Positions 559 through 23,842 of a DNA stretch of 64,000 bases are shown piece after piece. A program made the translations under genes and the position numbers. The notes under the pieces were generated by a model that saw only the letters and a list, made by a program, of their open reading frames with translations, was not told where the DNA came from and searched no databases. How positions within the stretch are numbered: the first letter of the stretch is position 1; each line of letters starts with the position of its first letter. Source of the stretch: Psychroserpens ponticola (GTDB taxonomy: Bacteria > Bacteroidota > Bacteroidia > Flavobacteriales > Flavobacteriaceae). The stretch lies in the NCBI RefSeq assembly GCF_023556315.2, contig NZ_CP116221.1:1499001-1563000 (forward strand), read 5' to 3'.

Positions 559-980
559 TTATTTGAAAAGTTGATTGATATTTGCTTTATATAATTTTCC
601 TATTGGCACAATGTGATCTTGAATATAAACTCTGTTTCCTACAATACTATTGATATGCTTTTTGGCAACTGCAAACGATTTATGTACTTGAAGAAAATCA
701 TGATCTGAAAGCAATTGTATGGTATCAGATATTTTTTCGCGGATGGTTATGTTACTTTTAGTAGTAATAACTTTAGTATAATTTCCTGAAGCTTCAATAA
801 ACAAGATTGCATCTAAATCTATTTGAATGTAACTATTATATTGTTTAAAAACACATGCTTTTCTTTAGGTTTTGTATTTCCGTTGCTTTCATTTTTTAGT
901 GTAGCAGTATTAGAAGCTGTTACTTTGTTTATGGCACCTAAAAAGCGTTCAAAACTAAATGGTTTTAATAAATAATCTAA
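559..980 (-). pseudogene. remnant of a LytTR response regulator (receiver lost, frameshifted)
   Basis: Read on the minus strand from 980, the sequence starts with [13 protein letters not shown], the end of a response-regulator receiver domain. A linker and the LytTR DNA-binding domain follow (LFIEASGNYTKV, then FLQVHKSFAVAKKHIN). About 95 residues of receiver are missing. The codon before LDY is a stop and overlaps the end of the neighbouring T9SS gene. The linker and the LytTR part are in different frames; one extra T in the homopolymer at 847-851 would restore the frame. The 81-residue open frame at 559-804 is only the tail of this wreck. A base-calling error at the homopolymer is possible, but the missing receiver is not explained by it. 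Confidence 0.8.
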
Positions 981-3900
981 TTAATCACCATTTTTTTTGT
1001 TTTATAAGCACTTCCATTTGATAATTGCACGATGTAAACTCCGCTACTTAAAACATTAGCATTAACAGTATTTATAAGGTTTGAATTATCAAGAGTTTGA
1101 TTAATTACCAATCTACCATGGATATCATAAATATTCACAGTGCTATGTTCTAATAATTGACCTTTTATAATAATTTCACTACTAGAATTATATGAATAAA
1201 TTAAAATGTCATCTAACCCAGAAATTAGTGTCGTTATGTTTTCATTAGAATACCTTAAAAAGAAACGACCAGTTCCCGCAAAATTTGTATTTGGAGTAAA
1301 CACATAATCAGAATCATTTAAAAGGGTTAATGTCTTTAATAACGTATCTTCAAGATATACATTCACATTAGTTGGTAACGTAGAGTCATCTCCTAAACTA
1401 ATTGTTAAAACTGTTCCTTCTTGTGCTTTTACTCCTAACGGAATTACAACATCATTGAAATCATTATATGGCAACGATTGAATTGCAATATCTAAACCTT
1501 GATTATCTTCAACAAGATTTGTAAATATTGAAAAATCACCTGACACACCTCCATAAGCACTTGCATCATATCCTTTATCTAAACCTTTTGTAGTCCCTTC
1601 AATAAAATAAATATCTGTACTATAAGTCTTAGTATTGTTTGATAATATCAATTTGCTTAATACTGAACTAGTTCCATTTTGGGAACGTCCTATAATAAAA
1701 TCATCACTTGTTCCAGTAGCTCTCATTGTTGGAGTAAACTCTAAATCGTAAAGCGGTACATGAGTTGGGTCAGCACTAACAAAGAATCCTTGACCTGGAG
1801 CAATAAGTGTCGAAGGTGTTGTAGTAGCTAAATTGTAAATAATCCATCCATCTAGTACATTACCATCATATCCATATATAGCAGCAGTACTAGTATTCAT
1901 TAAATTAATATTTTTAAGACCTGTACTCACTTCATGATTAAGGAAAGCCTGAACGTTTAAATAGGAAGGATATGGATTACCAACTAGATTCCATTCAGCT
2001 TCCGTTGGTCCAGAATTAGTGATATTATAAGTAACAATATCATTATTAGCAGTTCCTGTAAAAGTAAAGGTGTCATTGTCACTTGATGCAGCTCTATATC
2101 CAATACCTGCATCTAATGCTGTTGTGGAAGAACCAGCATAAGTTAAGTAATCACCCGTGACTTTATCAAAAGGACCAAATAAATATAAGTTGCCATTGTT
2201 TAAAATATTAGGGTTTGCTAACACAAAATCATCAAATTCTTGACCAGTTAAAGGCGCTGAAATTAAGTCATTACTTCCAGTCTCACCAGAACCATTAATA
2301 TTAACATGGCGCTCGTAGTTAATTGTACCTGTAACAGATCCATCAAGAATTAAACTTGAATACAATTGAGATGTTGATTTTAAAGTCGTTGTATTTGCTG
2401 ATAACGTAACGCCTGTATTTACAGTTAAAGCTGCACCAGCTTCAACTGTTATAACATCAATTGCAGTATTCATAGAAATTACAGCTTCACCAGCTTCGAC
2501 TACAATAGTATCGTTATTACTAGCGACGTTATTAGGGTCACTCGGAGACCAAACGTTATTATTAAAGGTATAAGCTATTGGATTTACGCAGAAATTAGTG
2601 GTGTCAGAGCCTAAAAAGCTCCCACCGGAAGCAACTGTTGTTCCATTAGCTGTTACAGTAAATGATCCATTGCCATATCCACAGCAAATACCATCTCCGT
2701 AAGTATCATTAATGATAAAGTCATAACAACCATCAGCAAGGCATTCTTCAATATTTATCGTAGAGCCATCTGCTTGATCAGCATAAGTTCCGCCGGAAGC
2801 TACAATAGCGCCAGAGTTGTCTTGAATTGACCAGCTTGTTTCTTGTGGATAGTCGTCAAATGTAATAGAAATCACGATCACGTTTTCTGTACATGGGCAA
2901 ACATCTGGACACGACCCACCACAATCAATTCCAGTTTCATCACCATTTTGAATGCCATCAGTACATGTCGGCGTTACTGGGCAAGCATCTGGACACGACC
3001 CACCGCAATCAACTCCAGTTTCATCACCATTTTGAATACCATCAGTACATGTTGGCGTTGGTTGGCTTTCAATAATCTGTAAGAATTGATTAATTGCCGG
3101 ATTCATAATTTCATCAACAATACCTGAAGGCCAGCGAACAACTACTTTTTCTACTTGAGAGCTTACTCCAATTCCATAGTGTTGTGTAAACGAATTTACC
3201 AAACCATATCCTTCACCTGATTTTACATCTCTTATTTGTATACCCCAAGTACCATGTAATTCCACTCGGGCTCCAATACCATTTATATTACTGACTGTTC
3301 CTTCTAATTGAATATTAAGAAAGTTGTTTGAGTTCCCTTGATTTAGCCAAATTCTATCTTTTATTGTAGTTGGTGAATTGAATCCGTTAGCATATCCAGC
3401 ATAAATATCTAAGAAACCATCGTGATTGATATCTCCAACAGAGAACGAATGAATTTGATCGGAGTTAAACGGATTTATTGCATTCTGAAAAGTACCATCT
3501 CCATTATTATAGAAAAGGAAGTGACTATCGGTTCCTGATACCATTAAATCTATATATCCGTCATTATTTAAATCTTTAAAGAAACCTTGAATTCCAGTAA
3601 TATTTTGTGAATCTAGAGTTGGTAAAAGCCCACTTCCCGAAGTGATTTCGGTAAAGGTTCCGTCACCATTATTTCTCATTAAATTAGGACCTTCATAGTG
3701 GTTTATTATAATGGCATCTAAATCACCATCATTATCAATATCACCGAAATCAGATAACCAGCTTTGAGCTCCTATTTTAAGATTAGCTTGTTCAGCAACT
3801 TCAATAAAATTATTATCACCATCATTTTGCCATAACATGTTAATACGGCGCGGATCAGTACTACTGGTTGCACCACCTCTACATTTAGAAATATAAAGAT

Positions 3901-5941
3901 CAAGATCACCATCATTATCATAATCAATCCACATGCTTGCATAATTTCCAGAATTGTCACTACTTGGAGTCGTTTCAGTGCTTATTAAATTCTCATTGAA
4001 TAAGAGTGTTCCATCCTGATTATTTTGAAATGCTCGTGCTTCTGCATCGTCATGACAAGCAAAAATATCAGCCCAACCATCGTTATTTATATCTGCAAAA
4101 TTGGCACCTTGTAAGAATATATTTGAATTAAATAGATTAGACTGCGAGTATGAGTTGTTACCATTATTATTCTTAATAATTTTCAAGTTATCATAAGCTC
4201 CACCAGCCATAATATCATTGTATCCATTATGATCAAAGTCAGCAATAGCAGTACCCCATTGGTTTTGGTTACTTACATTACCGTGTTCAAAGCTTGTAAA
4301 TAGTTGTCCAGCTCCATTTTGATATTGGATACGAAGCGTTCTAGCATTATTAAACTGTACAATATCATCTTTTCCATCGCCATTCATATCGATGACTCCC
4401 ATAGGCAATCCACTAAAGTTGTCTTGACCTAGAAGAGCAGTTCCATCTGTAAAGCCTACTATATTTCCTCCAGGGTTAGTATTATTTACTGCAATTGTAG
4501 TTGTAGCTTGGTCAGATTGTAATCCATCACTAACAATTAATGTTGCTGTAAACTCAGCCGAACTCGTATATACATGACTAGTCGTAACACCTGAAGCTGT
4601 GTTACCATCTCCAAAATCCCAAGAATACGTTAGTGTGTCGCCATCAGCATCTGTTGAAGCTGACGCATCAAAATCAACACTTAAAGGTGCTGAGCCATTT
4701 ACTGTAGACGCTGAAAACAAAGCTATTGGTGGAGAAGACGTCGTAGGTGTAAGGCTATTAATCCAATCTTGAATTAATTGAACACCAGCTGTATCTACAA
4801 CATCTTTTGCTATTGGTGGCATTTCAATACCAGTTTGTGTAGAATTCATTCTAAAATGAGCCATTGAATTTGCAACATCCTGCGGAATAATAACTTTCGG
4901 ATCGCTCAAACCTTCATCATATACAACATCACCATAAATAATATTTTGATTTCCTAATGGCGTTGTAAAACGAGCGTCAAACATAGCTATATTATCGACT
5001 GTTGGGTTGTGACAACTTCCACAGTTCACATCAATATAAGATCTAGCTCTATCTTCAATAGAAGCGCTTAAATCGTCTTTTGCAGCTACGGCTGAATAGG
5101 TACTTACATTGCCATTGGTAATCGCTTCAGTTATGAGTCCGAGCTCACTAAAATTCACTAGTTGGTTCATTGTAATTCCAGTACTAGGATAAAGGATAGA
5201 CTTATTAAGGTTTCTTGTTTTTGGTCCTAGAACACTACCATTTTGAGGGAAGTGACAAGAAACACACTCGGTTCTACTTGGGTAATGCCAAGATTGGGTA
5301 ACTCCATTAACAACGACATCTTCATCAACAGCAGCATTTAATAGTGTTGCATCTGTTTGGGCTATATTCCACTTATACGTTAAATAGTAATATATGTCAT
5401 CGTCACCTTTAACTTCAAATCGTGTTTCAAGACGTTGTCCACCAACTTCAAAATGTTTAATTAGGACTGAGCCTCTTGGGAAGTCCCAAGCTTCATCATT
5501 TGAAAATGTAATTTGCTCGTCAGCAGTATTGTATGAGCCATCATTTGGTACAGCCATCCATCTTTTTTTGTCAGCTCCATCAGACCAAAACGGTTCAATC
5601 ATATCATAAGGAATGAGCCCAAGGCTTGGAGTTAACGCAACCAAATCGGAAAAGGCTCCAGTTTGTGACAATAAGGCTGGAATACCAGTGTTGCCTGAAG
5701 GTGTTGTCGTTGGTAAATTTCCATTAAGAAATTTTGCAATCGCTTCAGCGTTCATGGCTGACTCGGCTAGTAATTCTTCAACCTCGTAGGACGCTAAAGC
5801 TAGCATTTTATAATCTGCAACCTCTATACTTTCATATTCTGAATAATGTGAAGAATTAATTTGTGATTCATTAAAATATAGAACTGAAAGCGCTGCAATT
5901 GCTGCTAGAGTTAAAAATGTAATAAATTTCTTGTTAGCCAT
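977..5941 (-). CDS. giant T9SS-exported protein: diheme cytochrome-like, PKD, FG-GAP and ASPIC/UnbV domains
   Basis: The protein has 1654 residues from the ATG at 5941, chosen because [10 protein letters not shown] starts the signal or anchor helix; an ATG 14 codons upstream gives an unlikely leader. Domains in order: hydrophobic N-terminus; cytochrome-like region with two CxxCH heme motifs (CVSCH near residue 226, CGSCH near 307); PKD domain at about 400-487 (SWDFGDG); FG-GAP/VCBS repeats with many DxDxDGxxD calcium loops at about 500-860; ASPIC/UnbV domain at about 880-945; two Cys-rich [12 protein letters not shown] repeats; another Cys-rich module; a T9SS type A sorting domain in the last 70 residues ending KKMVIN. 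I infer a cell-surface redox or adhesion protein. Its stop codon abuts the regulator remnant. Confidence 0.85.
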
Positions 5942-6626
5942 TTTATTTGTGGAATTAACAAAAAATACATGCAAAAAAATCATGTGCTATTTATACATCA
6001 TCAGAAAAGAAAATGTATCGAATAAAACAAAAGCATTAATGAAGAATTTAGCGTGTAGTTTTTGTCATGGTTTATTGATTGTTGGTTTGTTAAGTTGGCT
6101 TGAATTAATTTCAAACGAAACGTGCTCTACAAGATGACATATAATTACGTTATATGGTAATATTTTCGTTTATCGTATTGGTTTTTAGGTTGTAGTACTT
6201 TTTAGCAGTTCTTGAGACAGGGGTAGAAAAAGGATTGGTTCCTGCTTCATAAAATTAATTCTATTATAATCTATAGGTGCATTGCCGTGCATTATAGGTG
6301 GCTTTACTATGGCGTATCTATGAAGTATCTATGGCGTATCCATTAACTAAACACTTGTAAATTCTTAAAAAAATTAAGAAATAGATCACAAACATTAACA
6401 TTATTTAGCATTTTGAAATGTAATAATCGAGATAAATGCTTCGTTATCAAATAATTGCAAATACACATACACATGATTTCCACAAAGCCGTATTGAAAAT
6501 CAATAGGCCTATTGATAATTATTGATTCTTTATAAAAGAGAATTGAAATTGTTTAACTAGAGTTCTAACGCTATGAAATAAGCTCATAACATGAGTTATA
6601 GTATTGGCTCATAATATTTAGAAATT
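5942..6626. other. 685-bp intergenic region with short repeats and a palindrome
   Basis: No convincing gene is seen; the short open frames here have no recognisable features. The stretch holds three 11-bp tandem units (6308-6340), a perfect 18-bp palindrome centred on AGGCCT (6499-6516), and a duplicated GCTCATAA near 6580-6615 just before the next gene. The upstream region of the minus-strand T9SS gene must also lie here. No clear TAnnTTTG element was found for either gene. Confidence 0.6.
6308..6340 (+). repeat. three 11-bp tandem repeats
   Basis: The units are TATGGCGTATC, TATGAAGTATC and TATGGCGTATC, end to end. The 11-bp period is close to one helical turn, so the units face the same side of the DNA. 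They lie about 290 bp upstream of the gene at 6627. Function is unknown. Confidence 0.8.
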
Positions 6627-7427
6627 ATGGCAAAGCAAAAAGGTTTTATCAGGTTAAAAGGTTCGTTGGGAGGACTTACTTTTTACAAGAATAACGGAAA
6701 TGATTTAATTAGAACTACTGGAGGTGTCGATAAAAATAGGATAAAAAACGATCCTGCTTTTAAACGTACTCGTGAGAATATGAGTGAGTTTGGAGCTTCT
6801 GCAACTGTTGGAAAAGCATTGCGCATGGGATTTGCAAATATTATCAAAACTATGAGCGATAACAGTATTGTTGGCAGAATAACTGGGCTTATGAAAAAAA
6901 TAAATTCTGTTGGGACAGGAATAAGAGGGCAACGTGCTTTTGAAATCATGCCAAATAAAATACTATTAGAAGGTTTTGAGTTTAACAAAACAATGCCTTT
7001 AGATGCAATATTTTATGCACCAAACACAGCACCAACTTTAGATGCTAATAGGAGTGTGGCCACTTGGGTTGTACCAGATTTTAATGCTTCTAACTATATA
7101 AATGCACCTGAAGGCGCAACCCATTTTAAATTGGTATTAGTTAGTACTGTTTTAAGCGATTATGCCTTTAATACACCTTTAGGGAAGTATGAAGCCACTA
7201 ATGCCGATGAAAATGAAACCAATGGCATTGCTTTTAGTGCAGAACTTCCACTAGATGGTATGGTAGGCGCAGATACTACATTAACTGTAGATTTAGGTTT
7301 TGCAGCTGCATTACCAGCAACAGTTGCTGTTATTAATGCTGTTGGTATTATTTTTTACCAAGACATAAATTCTTTGTTTTACGAATTGGCAAGTGATAAT
7401 GCTATGAAAATAGAGAGTATTGGATAA
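6627..7427 (+). CDS. conserved hypothetical protein with N-terminal KGFIRLKGSLGGLTFYK motif
   Basis: The protein has 266 residues. The N-terminus (MAKQKGFIRLKGSLGGLTFY, then NDPAFKRTRENMSEFG) resembles a family of unknown function that I recognise from flavobacterial genomes. A helical N-terminal third, rich in Lys/Arg, is followed by a beta-rich, acidic C-terminal part. There is no signal peptide and no membrane segment. It stands alone: 685 bp of non-coding DNA lies upstream and two terminator-like hairpins lie downstream. No function can be assigned. Confidence 0.75.
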   Translation: MAKQKGFIRLKGSLGGLTFYKNNGNDLIRTTGGVDKNRIKNDPAFKRTRENMSEFGASATVGKALRMGFANIIKTMSDNSIVGRITGLMKKINSVGTGIRGQRAFEIMPNKILLEGFEFNKTMPLDAIFYAPNTAPTLDANRSVATWVVPDFNASNYINAPEGATHFKLVLVSTVLSDYAFNTPLGKYEATNADENETNGIAFSAELPLDGMVGADTTLTVDLGFAAALPATVAVINAVGIIFYQDINSLFYELASDNAMKIESIG

Positions 7428-7428
7428 C

Positions 7429-7452
7429 ATGCCATCTGCCTTTGGCATTTTT
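7429..7452 (+). terminator. probable terminator directly after the 6627 gene
   Basis: The arms ATGCC and GGCAT, separated by 10 bases, are followed by four more T after the right arm. It starts one base after the stop codon. The stem is short, so this is moderate evidence. An alternative pairing (CTGCC with GGGCAG just downstream) is possible. Confidence 0.45.
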
Positions 7453-7511
7453 CCTAAGGGCAGAGAGCGGTTTAAAATATAAGGTTTGTGGAAACCTTTA
7501 TGTGAGGAAAG

Positions 7512-7539
7512 GCAATCTTAATTATTTAAGGTTGCTTTT
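7512..7539 (+). terminator. Rho-independent terminator
   Basis: A 10-bp stem (GCAATCTTAA with TTAAGGTTGC, one non-Watson-Crick pair) has a TTAT loop and is followed by TTTT. It is about 85 bp past the end of the 6627 gene. Confidence 0.6.
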
Positions 7540-7588
7540 CTTCATGCATTAAAGTAAAACTCAATCTTCTTTTTCTTTATTTTTTTCT

Positions 7589-7730
7589 TTACAACTGTTT
7601 CTCTACGATGTTAATGGAACCGCTTGCGGTTCATGAGCTCCTCTAAAACAATAAAAATCTTGCGAATAAACACTCTTTTTACGTAGCGACGATAGGAGCG
7701 TAGTGGAATGTGTGAGGAATGGATTAATTG
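7589..7730. repeat. dispersed intergenic repeat, family 1, copy 1
   Basis: The stretch contains GTTTCTCTAC, GTTAATGGAAC, a CACTCTTTTT run, AGGAGCGTAGTGGAATGTG and GGAATGG in order. The same series recurs at about 12980-13066 and 23843-23926. This copy carries about 50 extra bases between the GTTAATGGAAC and CACTCTTTTT blocks. No open frame is associated. The rest of 7428-7813 holds the two terminators and nothing else recognisable. Confidence 0.65.
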
Positions 7731-7813
7731 GTTAATATATTGTTTATAAATATAAATTTTACTGCTTATTAAGAAATCAAACTTTCTTATTTTTAGTGAT
7801 TAAATTTACATAG

Positions 7814-10800
7814 ATGAAGATATTACACATTACAGATTTACATTATACTAACCAAATTGGAGGAAGAACAAAACAAAAGAAATTACTAGACAACTTCTTC
7901 AATGACTTAGAAAAAAATATTGATAAAATTGACTTTGTAATATTTTCAGGTGATTTAGTCCAAAGAGGGGACAAAATTGAAGATTTTGAACTTGCAAAAG
8001 TTAATTTCCTTGAGAAGATAGTAGCTGTAACAAAAATTAGCAAAGAAAATATTTTCATATGTCCTGGTAATCATGATATAGATAGAAGCGTGGTTTCAAA
8101 ATCATTAATTAAGTATTTAGATGAGGAGATTGATGATAATATAAAACTGGATGATATTTTTAAACAAAGTAACACTGATTTAATTAACAGTCATAAGCCT
8201 TTAGAAAACTATAGGAATTTTGTAAATGATTATTTTAAAGAATGCACTAATTCTTTTGACTATGTAGAAGAAATGTATTCGACTCATATAAGAAATACTA
8301 GTTCAGGAAAAATTGGTTTTGTTTGTTTAAATACAGCTTGGAGATCAGTCGGAATAAATGATGATAATAATTTATTATATCCTATTAGCAAAATTGATGA
8401 AGCATTAGATAGAATATTATCTTGTGACATAAAAATTGTTTTACATCATCATCCTTTAAAAGATTTGCGTCCTTGGAATTTATACAAGGTTGAGGATTTA
8501 CTTCATAAAAGATTCGATTTTATGTTAAGTGGACACATTCATAAAAACAATCTGAGTCTAGATTTAACGCCTAATGATGGAGTTATTAAATTAGGTTCTT
8601 CTGCAAATCTATCTTTTGAAGTTGAATCTCAAATAGGATATTCTTTAATTAACCTTGATTATATCGAAGATATGTTTAGTGTTGATTTTCGAATGTATGA
8701 TTTAAAAAATGAAGTTTTTTATCCATTAGATAGCAAGAAATATAACATCCCAACTAATGAAGTTCTCGCAAAACAAAATGAATTAAGAAAAAACATTAGA
8801 AGACGTTTTTTAGATGAGCTAGACGATTCAAAATCTCTTTTTGTAGAAAGTGATAATAAGGAAAATCGAAAAGATTTACTAGAATTAAGTACAAACCCAG
8901 TTCTTAAAGAAAAATCTATTTCCGAAGTATTAAATGATGATAGTAGTCATCCTGATTATCTTTGGGCTAATTTTTTCAAATTTGAAAAAGACTTCATTGC
9001 TTATGGCAAAGATAAATGTGGCAAAACTATTATGCTAAAAAAAATAGAATTAGAACTTTTAAGGGATTTTTCTATTTATAATAAAATACCATTTTATATC
9101 GATTTAAAATACTGGAGTAATTCCATAAACGATTTTAACTTTTTTAAAGAATTATCAAAATATTATTATACAAATGCTAATGCGGCAATTAAACTTTTTG
9201 AAGAAAAAGATTTCATTCTATTATTAGATAATTTTCATCTAGAAGATAATAAAACGAAAGATGTTCTTGAAAAAATAGTAAGCGAAAATGATAATGTTAG
9301 AGTAATAATTTGTTCAATAAATAGCTCTCTAAATTCATTGGATACTGCAAGATTTGATGGAAGAGATTTAAACAAGTTATATTTTCATCGTTTACGTAAA
9401 ATACACATTAAAGAATTAACCAAAAGAAATTATTCTTTCACAGAGGAGAAAGAGAATCAGGTAGTTGAAAAAATAAATACAATTTTTAAAAAACTTTCTA
9501 TTCCTTTTAATTATTGGACAATTTCAATATTCTTGTGGGTATTTAATAAAGATGCTAATAACAAACTTCACAACGATGTAGATCTAATTAATCTTTATGT
9601 AGAAAAACTTTTAGAGAAGGAACAGTTAACTGTTTCGGCATCTTCATTCACGTTTAATAATTACAAAAAATTATTGGCGCATTTTGCTTACTTTTTATTA
9701 AAAGAAAATCACAAGAATTCTTATTATGCTAAGTACTCAGATATTATTGAATTTATTCAGAAATATCTGGATAAAAACCCAAGATTAAGAATAGATCCAA
9801 GAGATATTTTTGATTACTTAGATTCAAAAAGTTTATTGCGAAAAAAAGATCCTGATTATTATTCTTTTCGGTTAAATGGTGTTTTTGAGTATTTTGTTGC
9901 ATATTATATGACTTTCGACCAAGTGTTCTTAAACGAAGCTATTGAAGATGAAAACTTCTATTTGTCATTTTCAAACGAATTTGAACTTTACGCAGGTTTT
10001 AAGAGAGATAATGTAGAGTTTCTAAATAAAATTTATAATAAAACAAAAAATCATTTTTTTAATCTAAATCAAGAGTATGATCTAAAAATTACTTCAATAG
10101 ATACTGTTTTAATAAGCAAAATTGTTGAAGCTGATAAACTAGGAAAGTTAATTGAAAAATATTCTAGAAAATTTCAAGATAGTTTATCTGAAATTCAGCA
10201 GGATGAAATTGAAGAGCAAATGAATCAAGAGATGAAACTTGATGAGAATCATAGTGAGGTTAAAATGAAAAAAATTAATTCGCTCAACGAATCATCAAAT
10301 TCATTAGAAGAGAGTTTGACAATTTTAGGAAAAGTATTTAGAAATACTGATGATATTAATGATTCTGATTTAGTATATAAAATTTTTGATTATATAATTG
10401 AAAATGCTTGTTTATGGAGTTTTAAACTTTTAGATGAGTTTGGAGAAATGGATATATCCGAAATAATTAAAACAGATAGTAAAGGAGAGGCTCAAGGTCT
10501 TTTAAAACTTATTTCAAATGTAATACCAACGTTAGTACAAGTAAGGCTTTACGATATGCTTGGACATATTAATTTGGAAGGCATAATAATTGAACGATTA
10601 GAAAAGTCTAAAACTGACTATAAAAATAATCAGTTTAAATTATTCATTTACACTTTTCTACTTTTAGATATTAATTATTTACAGCATAAAGCTATTGTTG
10701 AAGAAATGATACCTTTAATTAAGATTCCAATTATAAAATATTCCTTTTTATTAAAATTAAATTATTATTTAGGTTTTAAAAATAATTTAAGCAATACTGA

Positions 10801-10915
10801 TAAGCGTGAATTAAAAAATAATATTCAAAGCCAATACCTTAAATTTAATAACAAAACTGATGTAGGTGATATTCAAAAGGGTATTGCACATAAAATAAAA
10901 AACAAAAAGCAATAA
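7814..10915 (+). CDS. calcineurin-like metallophosphoesterase fused to a STAND-like P-loop NTPase
   Basis: The protein has 1033 residues. Residues 1-300 form a complete calcineurin-like phosphoesterase: D8/H10 (ITDLH), D47 (SGDLV), N86-H87-D88 (GNHD), H211-H213 (LHHHP), H241 and H243 (SGHIH). A P-loop follows at 398-405 (GKDKCGKT), with a Walker B-like strand at 467-473 (FILLLDN) and a sensor-like strand near 493-498 (VRVIIC). The remaining 500 or so residues look all-helical, with no recognised repeat. There is no signal peptide or membrane helix, so it is probably cytoplasmic. This is the effector plus NTPase plus long helical sensor layout of STAND conflict proteins. It is very AT-rich and stands alone between repeats, which suggests acquisition. 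Nuclease or phosphodiesterase activity is inference. Confidence 0.8.
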   Translation: MKILHITDLHYTNQIGGRTKQKKLLDNFFNDLEKNIDKIDFVIFSGDLVQRGDKIEDFELAKVNFLEKIVAVTKISKENIFICPGNHDIDRSVVSKSLIKYLDEEIDDNIKLDDIFKQSNTDLINSHKPLENYRNFVNDYFKECTNSFDYVEEMYSTHIRNTSSGKIGFVCLNTAWRSVGINDDNNLLYPISKIDEALDRILSCDIKIVLHHHPLKDLRPWNLYKVEDLLHKRFDFMLSGHIHKNNLSLDLTPNDGVIKLGSSANLSFEVESQIGYSLINLDYIEDMFSVDFRMYDLKNEVFYPLDSKKYNIPTNEVLAKQNELRKNIRRRFLDELDDSKSLFVESDNKENRKDLLELSTNPVLKEKSISEVLNDDSSHPDYLWANFFKFEKDFIAYGKDKCGKTIMLKKIELELLRDFSIYNKIPFYIDLKYWSNSINDFNFFKELSKYYYTNANAAIKLFEEKDFILLLDNFHLEDNKTKDVLEKIVSENDNVRVIICSINSSLNSLDTARFDGRDLNKLYFHRLRKIHIKELTKRNYSFTEEKENQVVEKINTIFKKLSIPFNYWTISIFLWVFNKDANNKLHNDVDLINLYVEKLLEKEQLTVSASSFTFNNYKKLLAHFAYFLLKENHKNSYYAKYSDIIEFIQKYLDKNPRLRIDPRDIFDYLDSKSLLRKKDPDYYSFRLNGVFEYFVAYYMTFDQVFLNEAIEDENFYLSFSNEFELYAGFKRDNVEFLNKIYNKTKNHFFNLNQEYDLKITSIDTVLISKIVEADKLGKLIEKYSRKFQDSLSEIQQDEIEEQMNQEMKLDENHSEVKMKKINSLNESSNSLEESLTILGKVFRNTDDINDSDLVYKIFDYIIENACLWSFKLLDEFGEMDISEIIKTDSKGEAQGLLKLISNVIPTLVQVRLYDMLGHINLEGIIIERLEKSKTDYKNNQFKLFIYTFLLLDINYLQHKAIVEEMIPLIKIPIIKYSFLLKLNYYLGFKNNLSNTDKRELKNNIQSQYLKFNNKTDVGDIQKGIAHKIKNKKQ

Positions 10916-11116
10916 TATATTACCAAATTATTTCGACCTCATAAAATTTTGGCTAAAACAATAGGAGAGAGGAACGTAATATTTTAGGCTATACAAATGC
11001 AATTATCCTGAGGATATTGTATTTGTATATAACACTTAAGTAAAAGATTGCTTCAAATCATATTTAGCAAAAAATGTACTTTGGGTACAATTTCTTAACG
11101 TCAAATAGTCTGAAAT

Positions 11117-11290
11117 ATAGTGCAACGAACCGTAATTGTTTCCAAAATTATATACTATTTATGATATTGATTAAGTATCAATGTCGAGAATACTTAACTT
11201 GATTTTTTTGTTTAGCTCACGCGTTTATTTTTTAATGGAGTTCGTGAATCTCCTAAAGTCGATTTCTTTTGTTTCAAGACAAAAGATATT
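11117..11290. repeat. dispersed repeat, family 2, left copy flanking the 11432 gene
   Basis: Bases 11117-11225 match 12581-12689 over 109 bp with about six differences counted by eye. A GGAGTTCGTGAATCTCC block (hairpin arms GGAG/CTCC) follows and recurs near 12903. Then comes a hairpin with arms TCTTTTGT and ACAAAAGA. The surrounding gap 10916-11431 holds no gene that I can support. Confidence 0.8.
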
Positions 11291-11431
11291 GAAAGTTAAA
11301 AAAGACTAATTAGAATTATAAATAAATATTAACAAAACTCTACTGTCATTTCAGATTTCATAAAAATACCCTTTAATAGGTATTGTTGCCTTCAGATTTT
11401 AATATTAAATTGCGTGCTCAAAATAAAGATT

Positions 11432-12574
11432 ATGAGGAAGTTATATTTAATTTTTTTACTTGGAATATCATTTTGCAGCTTTGGACAAGAAACACTTTAT
11501 AAGAACTATAAGGTAACCAACTTTATTGATTTTTTGAATGACGATAAACATCAATACGATTTTGATAGTCTCACCGATAAAGTAAAGACGAAAGTAAAAT
11601 TTTTACTAAAAGAGAAATGCTCTGCCTATGAAGATTTATCTGTGAAAAACCAGAATACTATAGATGCTAAGTTCGATCTTGTAGCAAAAGGCGTAATACC
11701 AAGCATTGAATTAAAAGATTGTGCTGGAAATGTCTATCGCATTGATAAATCAAATGTTAATAATCCAGCGACGAAAAAATTAATAGTTATGAAAGAAATG
11801 TTGAGAGCGGGAACATTTGGAAATTCAAAGGAAAATAAGAAAACCTATAAAGCGGGTCTGCTATTTAAAGAGAATAAACTATATGTGAATTTATGGCCAT
11901 TTAAAGAAAAATCTAGTGACAGTGATAGCGATGATGATCAAGCGCAATTGGGAATTAAAAAAACAGTCACTATAGATGATGAAGACAAAGTAATATCTGA
12001 TGACAATGACCTCAATAAAACTAAAGATACCAGAGAAGTACTATTTTATGAAATACCAGATGATCATACCGCCAAATTAAAGTTTACTGAGGTTACCTTG
12101 ACAGCAATCACTATTCCTTTGAAATATAGATTTAGAACAAATAGAGCTGCTATTGATGCATCTGATGAGGAAAACCCATTGCAAGTTTCAATTGAAAGTG
12201 AGGAATTTAGTACATCTGTAAATATTGCTTTTTTTGGAGGGTATACATGGGGGAATACAAAATTTACTCATCGTAAAAAGATTGGAAACAGGACTTTTAC
12301 TTCTAAAAATACCCTTGGTGTTTTTATAGGTTCTTCTGCTGTTGAATTGAAGGGAACGAATACTGACATAACTTTGGATCAACCACAAGGGGATAGAGAA
12401 GGAACTTTTGGAACAATAAGTTTTGGAATTGGTTATGTAAAAAGTTGGAACAAAATAAGTGTTGGATTATTTGGCGGTATCGATAAAGGAGTAGGTCGTG
12501 TTGCTAAAACTTGGATATATAATGGTAAACCTTGGTTAGGTATTGGTGTCGGTTATGACTTATTTAAACTATAA
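11432..12574 (+). CDS. exported protein of unknown function, possible outer-membrane barrel end
   Basis: The ATG at 11432 is preferred over a GTG six codons upstream because MRKLYLIFLLGISFCSFGQ is then a clean signal peptide. The product has 380 residues. A charged region follows the signal. A very acidic Ser/Asp patch (SSDSDSDDDQ, near residue 170) is next. The last third has alternating strands rich in Gly and aromatics (FFGGYTW, ISFGIGYV, GIGVGYDLFKL), as at the end of outer-membrane barrels. I do not recognise the family. The gene is bracketed by 109-bp direct repeats, so it may travel or recombine as a cassette. Confidence 0.7.
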   Translation: MRKLYLIFLLGISFCSFGQETLYKNYKVTNFIDFLNDDKHQYDFDSLTDKVKTKVKFLLKEKCSAYEDLSVKNQNTIDAKFDLVAKGVIPSIELKDCAGNVYRIDKSNVNNPATKKLIVMKEMLRAGTFGNSKENKKTYKAGLLFKENKLYVNLWPFKEKSSDSDSDDDQAQLGIKKTVTIDDEDKVISDDNDLNKTKDTREVLFYEIPDDHTAKLKFTEVTLTAITIPLKYRFRTNRAAIDASDEENPLQVSIESEEFSTSVNIAFFGGYTWGNTKFTHRKKIGNRTFTSKNTLGVFIGSSAVELKGTNTDITLDQPQGDREGTFGTISFGIGYVKSWNKISVGLFGGIDKGVGRVAKTWIYNGKPWLGIGVGYDLFKL

Positions 12575-12580
12575 CCTTAT

Positions 12581-12870
12581 ATAGTGCAACGAACCGTTAT
12601 TGTTTCCAAAATCATATACTATTTGAGATATTGATTGAGTATCAATGTCGAGAATACCTAACTTGATTTTTTTGTTTAGCTCACGCGTTAATAATGTTTT
12701 AAGTGTTCGTGAATCTTCGATGTCTTTTTTTATCAAGAAAAAAAGATTTAATAAAACCTTGACCAGTTCATAACTCTTATAATCTATTTTACATAATAAC
12801 TATAAGTTTATTTAAAAGTGTTCAAATAGTAACGAGAATAGAATAAGTGCTTAGAATTTTACTTTACTCA
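12581..12870. repeat. dispersed repeat, family 2, right copy and tail
   Basis: Bases 12581-12689 are the right-hand direct repeat of 11117-11225. The tail, from a TTTTTTTATCAAGAAAAA hairpin near 12723 through GTTCAAATAGTAACGAGAAT to AATAAGTGCTTAGAATTTTA, matches 37268-37485. No coding sequence is apparent in 12575-13181. Confidence 0.75.
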
Positions 12871-12896
12871 TGTGTTTAATTATTTCATAAAACTTT

Positions 12897-12945
12897 AATG
12901 GTGGAGTTCGTGAATCTCCTAAAGTCGATTTGGTAAAAGTGAAAG
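12897..12945. repeat. dispersed repeat, family 2, short copy
   Basis: GGAGTTCGTGAATCTCC followed by TAAAGTCGATTT repeats the block at 11236-11264. It includes the GGAG/CTCC inverted arms around TTCGTGAAT. Confidence 0.65.
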
Positions 12946-12979
12946 TTGTTACCAATGATTCTTGAAAAAATTTACTCCA

Positions 12980-13066
12980 AAAGTTTCTTCTACATTGTTA
13001 ATGGAACACTTTTTATGCGACGACGTAGGAGGGAAGTGTAATGTGTGTGTGGAGTGGTTATAAATA
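12980..13066. repeat. dispersed intergenic repeat, family 1, copy 2
   Basis: This is the compact copy. TTCTTCTAC, GTTAATGGAACACTTTTT, CGACGTAGGAGGGAAGTG, AATGTGTGTGTGGAGTGG occur in order, as at 7589-7730 and 23843-23926. It lies in the gap before the 3' end of the T9SS gene at 13182. Confidence 0.65.
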
Positions 13067-13181
13067 ATGAAATGTTTTGATATTTAAATTCTCTTTTTTT
13101 CAATAATATACAACCTAATACTCGGTGGGAAGTAAGCTATGTTTAACTGTAACTATTGCTTATTTTATATCTATTATTCTT

Positions 13182-16100
13182 TTAATATTTTAATATTTTA
13201 ATATTTCTTTTGTATGTATTATCAATAATAATTTCAGCGATATACACACCTGTCTCTCCTTCAATTTGGATAGGTATGTCTTTTTTGTTGTTATGCTGAT
13301 TATTAACTATTACTTGTCCAAGTAGATTATAGACTTTAATTTTTACTTGAGCATAATTTTTATTTATTCTTAACGTAAAATCTCCATTGTTTGGGTTTGG
13401 AAATAGCAAAAGATCTCCTGCTGTAATATTATAATCATCTACAGATAAATTATTATCGTATATGGTAGCACAAGTGTCGTTAAAAAAAAGCATTAAACCA
13501 TCAGTAGAACTTGAACTATCACCAGAATACGTTCCTACATAATAGTTGTTTAAGGGGTTACAAAAAAAACCTTGAAAAGATATTATATTGCCTAAATCTA
13601 CATTGTTAAATACATTAACCTTTGCCAATAAACCTTCAGTTGTATAATTCCCAATAAAAACACTTGTGTTTTCTATAGATATTGATGTTGTGTTGTTATT
13701 TATATCATTAAAAATTATGCTCTCACTACCATCAGTTGTAGTTTTTGAAGCACACATGACATTAATCCTATCATTTAGTAGGTCTAATTTATATCCAACC
13801 GTATTAACATCTGAATTTTCAGAATCTGAACCAATAATCCAATCACAGAAGCCATCAGCACCAATTTTTTTTAAATAATAGGATTTAGCTAAACTTGAAT
13901 TTGTAAAGAGAGTACCATCTGCATTTTCAACTGTATGAATGTGGTTATAATTTGTATTGAAGTAACGGTTAGTACCAGTTATATATGTGTTTCCATTGTC
14001 ATCAGTAATAGCATCATTCATTTGTACATTATTATATTCGCCAGAATTTGTAGAATAACTTCGTGTTACCCATGATAAAGCTCCAGAACTATTGAGTTTA
14101 AAAAGGTGTGAATAATAGCTGCCACCAGGCTCATAAACATGGTAGTCTAAATCGGTAGACACACTAGAACCAGTATGATAAATGAACATTTCATTTTTGT
14201 ATTGTCCTTGAACATAATAATTATTGTTTGAATCAACACCAATTCGTTCTGCATGATAAGGTGTACCAAAAGTTCCTGATGTAGAAAAAATTTCGTTATC
14301 CCAAAGAATATTACCATTTGGATCAGATTTTATGATACCATTACAATAACGGTTACTATTGTTAGGAAAAATAATGGTTCCAACTTCATCAGTTTGGACA
14401 TCATCAAGATAAACAAAGTGATTATTATCATTAGAGAGGTCATAAGTTCCAGTAATAATTAAGTCATTATTATTATCCACTGTCAACCCAGTTGGATAAA
14501 ATGTTCTTATCCTCATAGACCAGATAAATTCACCTTTACTATTTAATTTTATAATATATCCACCTGAACTTAAATCAACTGAATTTCCTGTATTATCGTA
14601 AAACTTACCTGAGTTTGTATTAATGTCAAATCCTATATAAATATTGCCTAGTTGATCTTCCACTGAGGCATTCATAGAATTTGTACCAGAACTATTACCA
14701 TTAAGTGGTGATCCTGTAAAATAGACCAACCACTTTAAAACTCCTTTAAAATTGTGTTTTGATAAGAAACCACCTTGATTGTTTTCAAGATTAAGGGACA
14801 CACCATGATTTGTACCAAAAACTTCATTTCTATAAAATCCACCAGTAAGATAACCATCGGAAACTTTTGTTAAATTTGAAATATCTTTATTTCCAAATCC
14901 AGTCCAAGAAGGGTTTTTACTTTCATTTAAATAAGACCAACATGTTTGATCGTCTGATGGTTCATTATAAATATAAGGGCTGCTTAATGTTATTTGATCT
15001 TCGCAAAAGTTTTCAGAATTAGCAGTTAAGGTCACATCATATGTCCCATTCGAGTTGAAAACGTTTGTTGGATTTGCCAATGTACTTGATACAGTTGTAG
15101 CATTTTCAAAATCCCAATTGTAGTAACTAGCTTCAGTACATTGCTCAAAAAAATCAATCACTTCATTTGTTGCTGCATTAATTAAACCTGTATGAAATTT
15201 TGCTTCTGTTTGTTCTACAATGATATCAAATGTATTTGTGAAAGAATTATCACAATTAGTAGCAAAGACATTCTGAGATTTTAAATAATAGGTTCCCGTT
15301 TCATTTAAAGGAGCAGTATTAAAGGTTATAGTGGCTCCATTACCTTCAACACTTGCACCAAATATTTCATTAGAACCTTGTTTATAGAGTAAGTATTTAA
15401 CATCAGGTTCAGAATTTTCAAGTTGGATTTCTAAAGGTTCTTCATGACATAAAATAGCATCTATTATGCTGATAGGTTTATCAATCTGTGGTGGATTAAC
15501 AACATGAATGGATCTAGTATGCTCAGTAAACAAACCATTATTTTCTACTTGTAGTTTAATTTCATAAATACCTACAGTATCAAAAATATAATTAAACGAT
15601 TCGCAATTTGAACTTTGTACAACATTGTTAATGTACCAATTACATGAAGTAGAACTACCAATTTCAGCTTCAATTTCAGTAGCAAGTGTAGAAACGCATT
15701 GTCCTTCAGCGGAAGTAATGAATGCAAAAGGTTCTGCCTCGTTAGTTGGATCTAAGTTTCTTAAAATGACACCATTAGAGCCACAGGCGTATAGTGTAGA
15801 ATCATCTAAATTTACATTCCAAAACTCAGTGATATTATAGTTTAAAGAACTTGGTTGATATTCGAGAATATCCTTTGAGGTGTTAGACATAAATATACCA
15901 TGATCTGTGCCAATAAAGTTCCTATTATCTCTACTAAAAATGGTGTTTCCATTGAGTGTACCATAATTGTAATTGGGATATTCAACCACAGAAGCTAAAT
16001 ATAACCGTAAATACCTGTCATTAACACCGTAAGCAGAAGATGTAGAACTATATAAAATGTCTGTATAGGTTTCGTTAGGAGTTTCATAAGTTGTAGAAAT

Positions 16101-16724
16101 TTGAGAAGTTGCGCTATTAATGCTAACTTTATGATGTTTTTCTACAGAACCAATTTTAGCTGAAAGCCCTGAATTATTAAAACTAATGGCTTTTAAATCT
16201 TCTGTAAAACTAGTATTTAAAACACTATAATTAGAAATGTTATCTGGAATGCTTACAAATATTCCGTTGTCTCCAACTGCAAAATATCTATCAAAAGTGC
16301 TACTATATGCAATATCATTTAGACCACTATTAGATACATTTATTGTCACTATATCATAGTTTAACGACGGAAACTCAACACTTAAAATTACGGCTTTATT
16401 AGTAGTTGTGTTTCGGCCTACAGCAAAAATCTTAAATGTATTATCAGTGTTGTCAGGATTACTGAAGCACTTATTAAATGCTGTATTATTATAAAGCGTC
16501 GCATTTTGTGTGTTATCTGTAATTTCGAATCGTTGCCAGTTAGAAGAGCCATTTCCTCCATTTAAAGTATAATACAATCCATTTTCAGCAGAAACAATCC
16601 CAGTATCTTCAAAAAAGACTATTCCTGATAAATTGTCATTTATTCCTGAGTCAAGGTTTTCCCATTGGCAATATGAATTTTGGTAACTAAAGTAGATTAG
16701 TAAAAGAAGTATTGTTTTTTTCAA
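13182..16724 (-). CDS. large T9SS-secreted protein with PKD-like domains
   Basis: The protein has 1180 residues. It begins at a TTG (16722-16724), the only start that gives the signal peptide MKKTILLLLIYFSYQNSYCQ; no ATG is available. The N-terminal part resembles Ycf48/BNR-type propeller strands (LYYTLNGG, YFAVGDNGIF, LYACGSNGVI). Two PKD-like Ig modules follow, one near 340-410 and one near 520-590 (YNWDFEN, GTYDVTLTANS). Then come repeated strands of the GNIYIGFD/NTYITGTN type. The last 80 residues (LLLFPNPNNGDF to NIKILKY) are a T9SS type A sorting domain. It is probably surface-bound or secreted. A 25-bp tandem duplication covers its start. No enzyme domain is seen. Confidence 0.8.
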   Translation of the reverse strand: MKKTILLLLIYFSYQNSYCQWENLDSGINDNLSGIVFFEDTGIVSAENGLYYTLNGGNGSSNWQRFEITDNTQNATLYNNTAFNKCFSNPDNTDNTFKIFAVGRNTTTNKAVILSVEFPSLNYDIVTINVSNSGLNDIAYSSTFDRYFAVGDNGIFVSIPDNISNYSVLNTSFTEDLKAISFNNSGLSAKIGSVEKHHKVSINSATSQISTTYETPNETYTDILYSSTSSAYGVNDRYLRLYLASVVEYPNYNYGTLNGNTIFSRDNRNFIGTDHGIFMSNTSKDILEYQPSSLNYNITEFWNVNLDDSTLYACGSNGVILRNLDPTNEAEPFAFITSAEGQCVSTLATEIEAEIGSSTSCNWYINNVVQSSNCESFNYIFDTVGIYEIKLQVENNGLFTEHTRSIHVVNPPQIDKPISIIDAILCHEEPLEIQLENSEPDVKYLLYKQGSNEIFGASVEGNGATITFNTAPLNETGTYYLKSQNVFATNCDNSFTNTFDIIVEQTEAKFHTGLINAATNEVIDFFEQCTEASYYNWDFENATTVSSTLANPTNVFNSNGTYDVTLTANSENFCEDQITLSSPYIYNEPSDDQTCWSYLNESKNPSWTGFGNKDISNLTKVSDGYLTGGFYRNEVFGTNHGVSLNLENNQGGFLSKHNFKGVLKWLVYFTGSPLNGNSSGTNSMNASVEDQLGNIYIGFDINTNSGKFYDNTGNSVDLSSGGYIIKLNSKGEFIWSMRIRTFYPTGLTVDNNNDLIITGTYDLSNDNNHFVYLDDVQTDEVGTIIFPNNSNRYCNGIIKSDPNGNILWDNEIFSTSGTFGTPYHAERIGVDSNNNYYVQGQYKNEMFIYHTGSSVSTDLDYHVYEPGGSYYSHLFKLNSSGALSWVTRSYSTNSGEYNNVQMNDAITDDNGNTYITGTNRYFNTNYNHIHTVENADGTLFTNSSLAKSYYLKKIGADGFCDWIIGSDSENSDVNTVGYKLDLLNDRINVMCASKTTTDGSESIIFNDINNNTTSISIENTSVFIGNYTTEGLLAKVNVFNNVDLGNIISFQGFFCNPLNNYYVGTYSGDSSSSTDGLMLFFNDTCATIYDNNLSVDDYNITAGDLLLFPNPNNGDFTLRINKNYAQVKIKVYNLLGQVIVNNQHNNKKDIPIQIEGETGVYIAEIIIDNTYKRNIKILKY

Positions 16725-16763
16725 AATAGTATATGATTGTTTTTTTCAAAATCGTATATGTTG
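16714..16763. repeat. 25-bp tandem duplication over the start of the T9SS gene
   Basis: Two copies, 16714-16738 and 16739-16763, start GTTTTTTTCAAAAT and continue (A/C)GTATATG. On the minus strand each copy contains TTGAAAAAAACAAT. The copy nearer the gene provides the TTG start; the other is out of frame because 25 is not a multiple of three. Confidence 0.8.
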
Positions 16764-16825
16764 GTTTAACAAAAAACCAGTTTGTCAAATATATCGTTTT
16801 TATAAATAACACTTAAACCTCAAAT

Positions 16826-16850
16826 CTTACGTTCCTGTACTTTTCCTTTC
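16826..16850 (+). promoter_or_regulatory. candidate LytTR-type operator upstream of the kinase gene
   Basis: TTACGTTCCTGTACTTTT here closely matches CTACGTTGCTGTACTTTC at 19943. Each lies about 55-75 bp before a start codon. The TACGTT core resembles half-sites known for LytTR regulators, and a LytTR regulator is encoded next door. Binding is inference. Confidence 0.4.
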
Positions 16851-16885
16851 AATATTTAAAAGTATTTTGTTGTTTTGCTTTAAGA

Positions 16886-17974
16886 ATGGATATCAATAAA
16901 AAAACAAATAATAGTAATACGAAGATATCTCTTTATTGGAAATGTCAATTAATTGGATGGAGTATCGTTTCAGTTTATTGGGCTTATACAGTATATACAA
17001 GAGATAATTACGGCATTTTTTATACGTTGTTAAATTATGTATTAGACATTTCTATAGGAATATTCTTAACACATATGTATAGACAATTTGCCTTAAAAGC
17101 AAAATGGAGTAGTTTACCCATAAAAAAATTACTAATCCGTTTAGTCCCTACTATAATTTTATTAGCTATTTTATATGTAATAATAAACAATTTAAAATGG
17201 TATGTGTACTGGACTTTTATTGCAGGCGAGGATGAAAACATATGGGAATCTATTATTTACTGGGATCCAATTTTACTTACAGGACTTCGACTAATGTCTA
17301 TTTGGATATTGGCGTATCACTTGTATCACTACTATCAAAAAGAAGTTGTTACTGCTAAAGAAAATGCGCAATTATCTTTAATAGCGAAACAAGCTCAATT
17401 AGATAATCTATCGGCTCAATTAAATCCACATTTCTTATTCAACTCCTTAAACTCAATTAAATCGTTGGTCATCGAAAACCCTAAGGTTGCAAGAAGAGCA
17501 ATTGATTTATTATCAGATTTATTGCGGTCATCATTATATGAAAAAGACAAAGGTTTAATTTCTATTAAAAATGAACTTGCTTTAGTTTATGATTATATTG
17601 AATTAGAAAAAATGCGTTTTGAAGAACGTTTGCAATTAGAAATAACAATTGATAAAACATTAAACAGATTCAAAATTCCTACATTAAGTATTCAGTTATT
17701 GGTTGAAAACGCCATTAAACACGGCATTGATTTAATTGTTAAAGGAGGAATTATCAATCTTGTAATAAAAAAACAACAAGGTTTTATTGAAATTATTGTT
17801 ACAAATCCAGGGAAAATAAACAATAAAAAAACTATTGGATTAGGCTTAAAAAATTTACAAGAGCGATTAGCTATTCAATATAAAAACAACGCTGATTTTA
17901 GTTTAACTGAATTAAATAAAAATGAAGTTGAAGCAAAAATAAAAATACCATTTACAGTTAATGAAAACATTTAA
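16886..17974 (+). CDS. LytS/YehU-type sensor histidine kinase
   Basis: The protein has 362 residues. Four hydrophobic segments at about 20-35, 45-63, 83-110 and 127-150 form the membrane sensor. A coiled linker follows. The His_kinase (PF06580) region has H182 in LNPHFLFNSLNS as phosphoacceptor. The ATP-binding part has N275 in VENAIKHG and the glycine box IGLGLKNLQERL. The input signal is not apparent. The stop overlaps the start of the response-regulator gene by 14 bp, so the two are translationally coupled. A motif at 16826-16850 shared with 19943-19967 may be its own regulator's site. Confidence 0.93.
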   Translation: MDINKKTNNSNTKISLYWKCQLIGWSIVSVYWAYTVYTRDNYGIFYTLLNYVLDISIGIFLTHMYRQFALKAKWSSLPIKKLLIRLVPTIILLAILYVIINNLKWYVYWTFIAGEDENIWESIIYWDPILLTGLRLMSIWILAYHLYHYYQKEVVTAKENAQLSLIAKQAQLDNLSAQLNPHFLFNSLNSIKSLVIENPKVARRAIDLLSDLLRSSLYEKDKGLISIKNELALVYDYIELEKMRFEERLQLEITIDKTLNRFKIPTLSIQLLVENAIKHGIDLIVKGGIINLVIKKQQGFIEIIVTNPGKINNKKTIGLGLKNLQERLAIQYKNNADFSLTELNKNEVEAKIKIPFTVNENI

Positions 17975-18683: not shown

Positions 18684-18694
18684 ATTCAAAAAAA

Positions 18695-19873: not shown

Positions 19874-19942
19874 CTGTTTTTCAAATAAGTATAATCTATG
19901 CTCCTTTTAAAATTTAATGTTTTAACGCTTGTAAGCATATTT

Positions 19943-19967
19943 CTACGTTGCTGTACTTTCTCTTTTT
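19943..19967 (+). promoter_or_regulatory. second copy of the candidate LytTR operator
   Basis: CTACGTTGCTGTACTTTCTC matches the block at 16826 (TACGTTnCTGTACTTT shared). It lies 53 bp before the start of the 20020 gene in a 146-bp gap. This suggests that the 20020-23665 genes are targets of the neighbouring regulator. Confidence 0.4.
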
Positions 19968-20019
19968 AACTATTTATATAATCTATTTCTTTGTGCTATA
20001 ATTAATAAAAAATCATATT

Positions 20020-20640: not shown

Positions 20641-20677
20641 TATATACTATTACTTCTCACTTTTCAAATTAATCAAT

Positions 20678-21412: not shown

Positions 21413-21442
21413 TTTAATCTATTTGCACCATAAAAAAAATCA

Positions 21443-23665: not shown

Positions 23666-23697
23666 TTCGATTTAATTGAACTTCTTAGAATAACATT

Positions 23698-23778
23698 ATG
23701 TAAAATAAAACGAAAATGTTCTATTCGCTATTTTACTTACACGAATGCATTTGTACTATAATGTACTTGCGTTATGTA
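23698..23778. repeat. dispersed repeat, family 3, copy 1
   Basis: TATGTAAAATAAAACG, TTCTATTCGCTATTTTAC, ACGAATGCATTTGTACTATAA and TTATGTAAA match 37908-37990 block for block. Arms GTAAAATA and TATTTTAC can form a hairpin around TTCTATTCGC. Confidence 0.75.
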
Positions 23779-23842
23779 AAGATGGGCTTTGGTTAAATGC
23801 GCATTTTAAATATTACTTTTCTATATTTTTTTCTTTTCAAAT

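Follow-up and report, generated by a model that had tools for sequence, protein, structure and literature searches.

What is the role of a gene that joins a phosphoesterase to a P-loop nucleoside triphosphatase (NTPase) and a long helical region, and what are the repeated sequences between which it lies? This question is raised by positions 7814-10915 of a 64,000-nt stretch of the Psychroserpens ponticola genome (NZ_CP116221.1, positions 1,499,001-1,563,000, assembly GCF_023556315.2). The whole stretch is called the window here, and all positions follow its numbering. The gene very probably encodes an NLR-like anti-phage sensor that acts as a single protein, of the kind represented by PDC-S60 and DS-8, and is carried in a cassette bordered by two elements, designated L and R, within a hotspot of the Flavobacteriaceae. 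The order of the domains, the intact ligands and P-loop, the predicted folds, the membership in a family, and the position of the gene are shown here. The gene belongs to the varied cargo of a defence hotspot that extends over the family and has sharply defined non-coding edges. Numbers preceded by L, G and P denote loci, genomes and proteins, respectively.

Domain architecture and conserved residues

The gene and its parts are the following:

7814-10915, plus strand: PDC-S60/DS-8-like gene, with an ATG start and an open frame of 1033 amino acids
7814-8764, plus strand: calcineurin-like metallophosphoesterase (MPP) effector domain, residues 1-317, with ligands D8, H10, D47, N86, H87, H212, H241 and H243
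8969-9403, plus strand: STAND/NACHT-like P-loop NTPase core, residues 386-530 (limits set by us from the predicted secondary structure), with Walker A at 398-405 and the Walker B-like D472
9404-9913, plus strand: helical/winged-helix part with the nSTAND4 small alpha-beta domain (637-695; Pfam PF24406), residues 531-700
9914-10912, plus strand: C-terminal helical region of the predicted structure, presumed sensor, residues 701-1033

In Pfam, the protein matches Metallophos (PF00149) over residues 1-244 (E 1.7e-17, 65 bits versus a gathering threshold of 21.5) and nSTAND_NTPase4 (PF24406) over residues 637-695 (E 1.8e-12, 47.6 bits versus 27). The predicted structure, with a predicted local distance difference test of 84.2 and a predicted template modelling score of 0.75, consists of an MPP fold, a P-loop alpha/beta fold and helices, in which a winged-helix and small alpha-beta part precedes approximately 330 helical residues. 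The first-pass annotation, made from the letters of the window, had proposed a full set of phosphoesterase ligands, a Walker A motif with a Walker B-like strand, and helical residues after the NTPase, all of which are borne out. The role of sensor is presumed for residues 701-1033 from the architecture of STAND proteins. A sequence search against solved structures yielded just two matches, at chance level (E 0.19-0.24).

The residues were compared in an alignment of 64 sequences, comprising the window protein and 63 relatives with 18-93% identity. The ligands D47, N86, H87, H212, H241 and H243 are kept in 64/64, while D8 and H10 are kept in all 62 sequences with a letter at that column. In the Walker A motif GKDKCGKT, K404 is present in 60/64 (three Arg and one Ala in the others), and D472 of the Walker B-like LLLDNF is found in 64/64. 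Judged from this alignment, the conservation of the ligands, K404 and D472 is far above chance. Among the five segments compared, residues 531-700 show the highest conservation.

The gene had also been described as very AT-rich. This is correct for the gene itself (GC content 0.24-0.27 in three 1-kb intervals within it, versus 0.27-0.38 in the remaining intervals of 1-20 kb), but it is not a unique feature, as the region at 17-20 kb is equally AT-rich (0.27).

Relationship with PDC-S60 and DS-8

The window protein aligns over residues 1-1031 with positions 1-1022 of the 1027 of the PADLOC profile PDC-S60 (PDLC05051; 1277.9 bits). PDC-S60 is a candidate-system label, which comprises the models PDLC05051 and PDLC05050 in PADLOC-DB 2.0.0, and a literature search by name returned no paper on it. 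At E<=1, PDC-S60 and one 'Effector' model are the only PADLOC matches of the protein, and no Avs-named model appears among them. The NCBIfam model NF053861 (DS8_antiphage) covers residues 5-847 with 169.5 bits, against an equivalog cut-off of 790, which was exceeded in none of the eight genomes searched.

According to the DefensePredictor report, DS-8 acts as a single protein that combines a metallophosphatase resembling SMPDL3A with a NACHT domain; mutation of either domain abolished phage protection, and its substrate is unknown (PMC13092281). DS-8 is the relative recently shown to protect E. coli from phages, and represents a validated anti-phage MPP-NACHT protein. As in DS-8, an MPP and a P-loop NTPase are united in the window protein with their catalytic residues intact. 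A Chryseobacterium protein (P0118) reaches 718.8 bits with the DS-8 model and also matches both PDC-S60 models, PDLC05050 best; it shares 22% identity with the window protein over 888 columns of an alignment in which the MPP motifs coincide.

Because of the full-length PDC-S60 match, the DS-8 score under the cut-off and the comparison with P0118, the window gene is classified, by sequence comparison, as belonging to PDC-S60 and as distantly related to DS-8, but not as a DS-8. The same match and relationship support the proposal of the first-pass annotation that this is a candidate anti-phage protein. Since the architecture is already known from PDC-S60 and DS-8, the window protein is no new kind of protein, but a further member, in a Bacteroidota clade, of the MPP-STAND immune proteins.

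Conserved borders around the gene

The gene had been noted to lie between repeat families, and this has become the most informative part of the first-pass annotation, as the repeats are conserved non-coding borders: L at 7579-7722 on the 5' side, and R together with a further element, D1, at 10935-11267 on the 3' side. The elements and genes that follow one another in this region are:

7579-7722, plus strand: L element of the gene's cassette (nhmmer L model, halves with E 6e-5 and 1.9e-13)
10935-11079, plus strand: R element (nhmmer R model, E 2.2e-34)
11117-11267, plus strand: D1 element after R (nhmmer D1 model, E 4.9e-33)
11414-12574, plus strand: open reading frame (ORF) of 386 amino acids between two D1 elements, from the ORF list
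12581-12719 and 12819-12931, plus strand: second and third D1 copies (nhmmer)
12971-13056, plus strand: second L element, which opens the stretch 13049-23830 (nhmmer)
23825-23917, plus strand: third L element, which opens the stretch up to the DedA/YqaA-like gene (nhmmer)
38317-38940, plus strand: core gene of 207 amino acids with family-wide matches, presumably DedA/YqaA-like (named by recognition, not from a family scan), at the right end of the hotspot

The L of the gene's cassette is divided into halves (7579-7620 and 7669-7722) by 48 additional bases, and it ends approximately 90 bases upstream of the start codon at 7814, while the conserved core of R begins approximately 20 bases past the stop codon. 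The conserved sequence stops sharply at the cargo, with the L core ending just 5' and the R core beginning just 3' of it. Comparison with the flanks of a 32%-identical homolog from another genus (G146, L020) revealed 86% identity over 155 columns on the 3' side and, by blastn, 89% over 76 columns plus 86% over 56 columns on the 5' side. The L of the gene's cassette was also matched by blastn to the 5' flank of the L002 homolog. Across the family, L-like sequence occurs in at least 87 and R-like sequence in at least 58 of 299 genomes, both being lower bounds because two candidates were scored per genome.

The survey of homolog neighbourhoods for defence islands that had been suggested earlier revealed the L..R hotspot, with its varied defence systems, and borders around four of the nine copies or relatives examined (window, L002, L020 and L021; the last is a 26%-identical relative without its own PADLOC scan). 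The other five (L003, L010, L017, L018 and L019) lack L and R, although L003 lies on a contig of 4.5 kb. With this division, the gene is genuinely linked to the borders, although it can also occur without them. A degenerate R seemed recognizable by eye behind L018, the Mesoflavibacter-like copy, but it is unsupported by the hidden Markov model.

R is not a dispersed high-copy repeat, since only 21 of 54 genomes contain its exact core, with one or two occurrences in each (one in the window genome) and 24 altogether, and never as the reversed pattern. The single spelling used as exact pattern for L was too strict, matching 6/54 genomes. R as a structured RNA was likewise rejected, as RNAalifold gave no pairs, and an Rfam search of 5500-14000 returned no matches at E<=1. 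In L, by contrast with R, an 11-pair stem with covariation was found, with 95.4% of the cells paired (19.8-61.9% in slid versions) and 19 cells with changes on both sides, where the shuffles average 7.3. Of the five measures, however, the number of pairs with both-side change and that of further pair types do not exceed the shuffles, and the stem was derived from the same alignment used for its testing. L may form a hairpin in DNA or RNA. A by-eye comparison with the boxes of attC-type integron sites gave no convincing match.

Two small proteins were observed beside these borders. The ORF at 6627-7427 (266 amino acids, no family found) is 94% identical over 163 amino acids to L089:19035-19631, in the array of another genus, and has therefore been recently shared. 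A 144-amino-acid protein with a similar start is located near R in several arrays (L088:16755-17189, L089:17513-17947, L090:15913-16347 and L094:9656-10090).

A hotspot upstream of the DedA/YqaA-like gene

The DedA/YqaA-like gene has matches in 97/259 Flavobacteriaceae genomes at E<=1e-45. Its upstream region was read in 48 loci, namely those of 47 genomes with a match of at least 59% identity and L002, which was found via the gene itself; up to 20 kb were read per locus (38 kb in the window), and some contigs were shorter. At least one L or R was found in 31 of these loci and none in 17. The common order is L, cargo, R, D1 and the DedA-like gene, at times in tandem. In the window, the order is L, the PDC-S60 gene, R, D1, the 386-amino-acid ORF (no match in Pfam, PADLOC or NCBIfam at E<=1), the other D1 copies, L, other genes, L, further genes and the DedA-like gene; the genes in 13049-23830 look non-defensive, and the largest ORF there has no PADLOC match.

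This locus is therefore a core defence hotspot in the sense that one chromosomal place holds different defence systems among species. In two genomes of one genus, the same outer genes flank different cargo, with L and R enclosing a KAP ATPase in one (L091) and MPP and NACHT genes in the other (L092).

The genomes of L091, L092 and L094 are absent from the list of DedA-like matches, and their L/R cassettes are located near a gene which we take to encode an HPF/raiA-like ribosome factor. This site is a possible second hotspot.

Cargo of the cassettes

A total of 26 L..R cassettes were found among 51 stretches. Their median length is 5.1 kb (2.3-11.2 kb), and PDC-S60 is the cargo of two. The stretches L089, L105 and L130, which are excluded from the 48 loci, contribute cassettes. 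For 20 of the other 24 cassettes, an individual scan was made of the largest ORF, while L123, L130, L131 and L140 were only included in a bulk set (A2). In 14 of the 20, this ORF has a PADLOC match at 1e-10. The ten strong matches comprise two Argonautes (L088), methyltransferases (L099 and L108), an E1-E2/JAB protein (L101), IetS (L104), a Pycsar cyclase (L110), an NsnA-like protein (L115), PDC-M60A (L118) and a CBASS-type cyclase (L119). The remaining four (L089, L096, L113 and L116) are weak or partial. No match at this threshold was obtained for L095, L105, L106, L107, L109 and L139; Pfam identifies the ORF of L107 as a KAP ATPase.

As a control, the largest ORF of 30 non-R stretches with ORFs was used. 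Ten of these were hand-picked first, after the bulk-control result was known and without L130 and L134, and gave one match, a weak one. The other 20 gave at least three, a lower bound because 25 of the 33 families are listed: AbiLi (L130), a methyltransferase (surely L134, a locus resembling a DpnII-type operon) and an OmpA/MotB-like protein. The difference between 14/20 and 4/30 has a Fisher p of 7e-5, which becomes 7e-4 for ten strong matches in the cargo versus two in the control, and 0.004 if up to 8/30 controls matched; the control ORFs are mostly smaller than the L..R ORFs and not length-matched, and this may bias the comparison towards the latter. When scanned in bulk, the 95 proteins of the L..R set (A2) matched 167 PADLOC families at 1e-15, 25 of which are listed, and 97 control proteins (A3) matched 41, among which are AbiLi, a phospholipase effector and genuine restriction genes.

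Some cassettes deserve separate mention. L139:12985-17418 encodes a lone protein of 1477 amino acids without a Pfam family (1e-3) or a PADLOC match (1e-10), which is a candidate for a new defence protein. In L092:7657-12342, the MPP-STAND architecture is split between two adjacent genes, one for an MPP (373 amino acids) and one for a NACHT protein (1187 amino acids), which run against the L-to-R direction. A second pair of MPP and ATPase genes is found in L140:2015-5814, where an MPP gene (491 amino acids) lies beside a HATPase (GHKL) gene (774 amino acids); this cassette presumably also encodes a DNA cytosine methyltransferase. L088:3584-16488 is one array with class II-type and class I-type Argonaute cassettes and, between them, a gene which we take to be patatin-like. 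According to the ORF lists, L087:1757-19844 holds L..R units with TetR-regulated oxidoreductase-type operons and then a type I restriction-type operon, so that its cargo is not solely defence.

Possible modes of cargo exchange

All 79 L and R elements in the 48 loci share the orientation of the DedA-like gene. This uniformity fits an explanation towards which we lean slightly, namely that L and R are merely conserved elements with a regulatory or structural role in a variable locus of long standing, whose cargo changes via ordinary homologous recombination in the shared flanks without any dedicated system. No recombinase was recognized as a constant neighbour on reading the ORF lists (not by family scan), and the covarying L stem could act in RNA, both of which agree with it. 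Nevertheless, some L..R units are found elsewhere than at the DedA-like gene, and one genome has them at several sites (G146, at 0.74, 1.10 and 3.59-3.62 Mb). Furthermore, the cargo genes, which mostly run along the L-to-R direction, run against it in L089, L095 and L092, at odds with a plain leader and terminator, and the sharp end of the conserved sequence on either side of the cargo also counts against this explanation.

L and R could instead be the recognition borders of a dedicated, as yet undescribed exchange system of the Flavobacteriaceae that moves multi-gene defence cassettes of 2-11 kb between fixed sites, with an integron-like logic. PDC-S60-type genes would then be one cargo, and unknown cargo such as the L139 protein would be new defence systems. 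We consider this rather unlikely. PDC-S60-type genes with 93%, 32% and 26% protein identity to the window copy are found in L..R flanks of different genomes and at different places.

Distribution of the gene

A total of 123 related proteins, including that of the window, were found at E<=0.001, and 120 of them are listed. Counting the own genome each time, the gene has matches in 2/23 genomes of the genus (the other copy is 34% identical), and, with two candidates scored per genome, in 6/397 of the family and 2/395 of the class. No match was found among 50,697 INPHARED phage records. Seven loci were found in IMG/VR: L010, on a contig of 61.7 kb whose further ORFs were read by eye without a family scan, holds a full-length copy (35% identical), while the remaining six match the N-terminal part only. 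Among plasmids, 13/72,556 records match, none with a single place covering more than 80% of the query.

A 90%-identical copy in G368 (L005/L017) carries an in-frame stop before about residue 59, as judged from the start of the open frame, which reflects recent decay or an assembly error. This copy, together with the 48 additional bases in the L of the window cassette, could indicate that the window copy is an inert passenger, but its open frame and its intact ligands and P-loop make this very unlikely.

The neighbours vary among genomes; those of L019 presumably include tyrosine recombinase and HipA-like genes. The occurrence of the gene is patchy, and no partner gene is common to the neighbourhoods read, which argues against a STAND-type regulator or a metabolic phosphoesterase without a role in defence. 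Such a function could be conceived, since phosphoesterases are common housekeeping enzymes and STAND proteins include transcription regulators such as MalT. The homology with PDC-S60 and DS-8, and the site between borders that often hold defence systems elsewhere, render it highly improbable.

Proposed function

By analogy with STAND proteins, the C-terminal helical region would recognize a phage-made molecule or its effect, after which the STAND/NACHT-like NTPase would exchange nucleotide and oligomerize. The assembled NTPase would activate the N-terminal two-metal phosphoesterase, which would hydrolyse a phosphodiester or nucleotide substrate, and the infection would be stopped through the loss of nucleotide or nucleic acid, probably at the cost of the cell. 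In a possible but doubtful variant of the same immune architecture, the phosphoesterase is an Mre11/SbcD-like nuclease that acts on DNA or RNA, not an enzyme for cyclic or free nucleotides.

Several results weigh against an anti-phage sensor that is carried as defence cargo. The NACHT profile PF05729 is not matched by the window protein at E<=1; a relative (P0041) carries it. The C-terminal region is not hypervariable, as a sensor engaged in an arms race could be, with a conservation of 0.370 versus 0.367 for the MPP domain among relatives with 30-50% identity (0.223 versus 0.281 among those at or below 30%), a pattern that would fit a conserved trigger but is only suggestive. To these should be added the low score with the DS-8 model, the five copies without borders and the shorter control ORFs. 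Some L..R cassettes hold cargo of another kind, namely an efflux operon (L095, whose largest ORF is an outer-membrane efflux protein in Pfam), a secretion-tail protein (L106) and a subtilase (L105). Finally, no phage test of the window gene or of a close PDC-S60 protein was found.

The anti-phage sensor remains very probable. Because the L..R site holds other defence systems in other species, the gene is most likely a defence module, acquired, maintained and swapped as such. The window protein extends the MPP-STAND immune proteins by a testable Bacteroidota clade, but its setting matters more than the protein. The pair of borders, found across genera around Argonautes, CBASS, Pycsar, methyltransferase, IetS and MPP-STAND cargo, offers a simple means of searching marine flavobacteria for defence systems not yet characterised, and it raises the testable question of how defence modules swap so cleanly at a single chromosomal place.

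Other observations in the window

Two ORFs of approximately 200 amino acids (29339-29941 and 32453-33070) are duplicates, their displayed N-terminal parts being nearly identical by eye. Two 84-nt direct repeats, 92% alike, are located at 2894-3061, within an ORF of 1668 amino acids (977-5983).

Comparison with known systems

The window protein shares with DS-8 the order MPP, NACHT and C-terminal part within one protein, but it differs in length (1033 amino acids, versus 956 in P0118) and in its score, far under the cut-off. Its layout of effector, STAND NTPase and C-terminal sensor resembles that described for Avs and bacterial NLR-like STAND proteins (PMC12931631). The Foldseek match list of the predicted structure includes Avs4 (8dgf_B; E 6.1e-4), but, in contrast to Avs, the effector is an MPP instead of a nuclease or Sir2, and the small domain is of the nSTAND4 type. 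From MPPs of the SMPDL3A or acid sphingomyelinase type, it differs by an identity of 14-15%; SMPDL3A is not known to have a STAND part.

With regard to the setting, a narrow literature search found no report of an L/R-bordered hotspot. Core defence hotspots are known, but none was found described with conserved non-coding borders; within the limits of that search, such borders across a bacterial family are the new aspect. The core defence hotspots cDHS1 and cDHS2 of Pseudomonas aeruginosa also occupy a fixed site beside core genes and hold varied defence systems across strains (PMC10250203). The edges of the L/R hotspot are short conserved non-coding elements that flank the cargo on either side, recur in several genera and at times form tandem L..R arrays.

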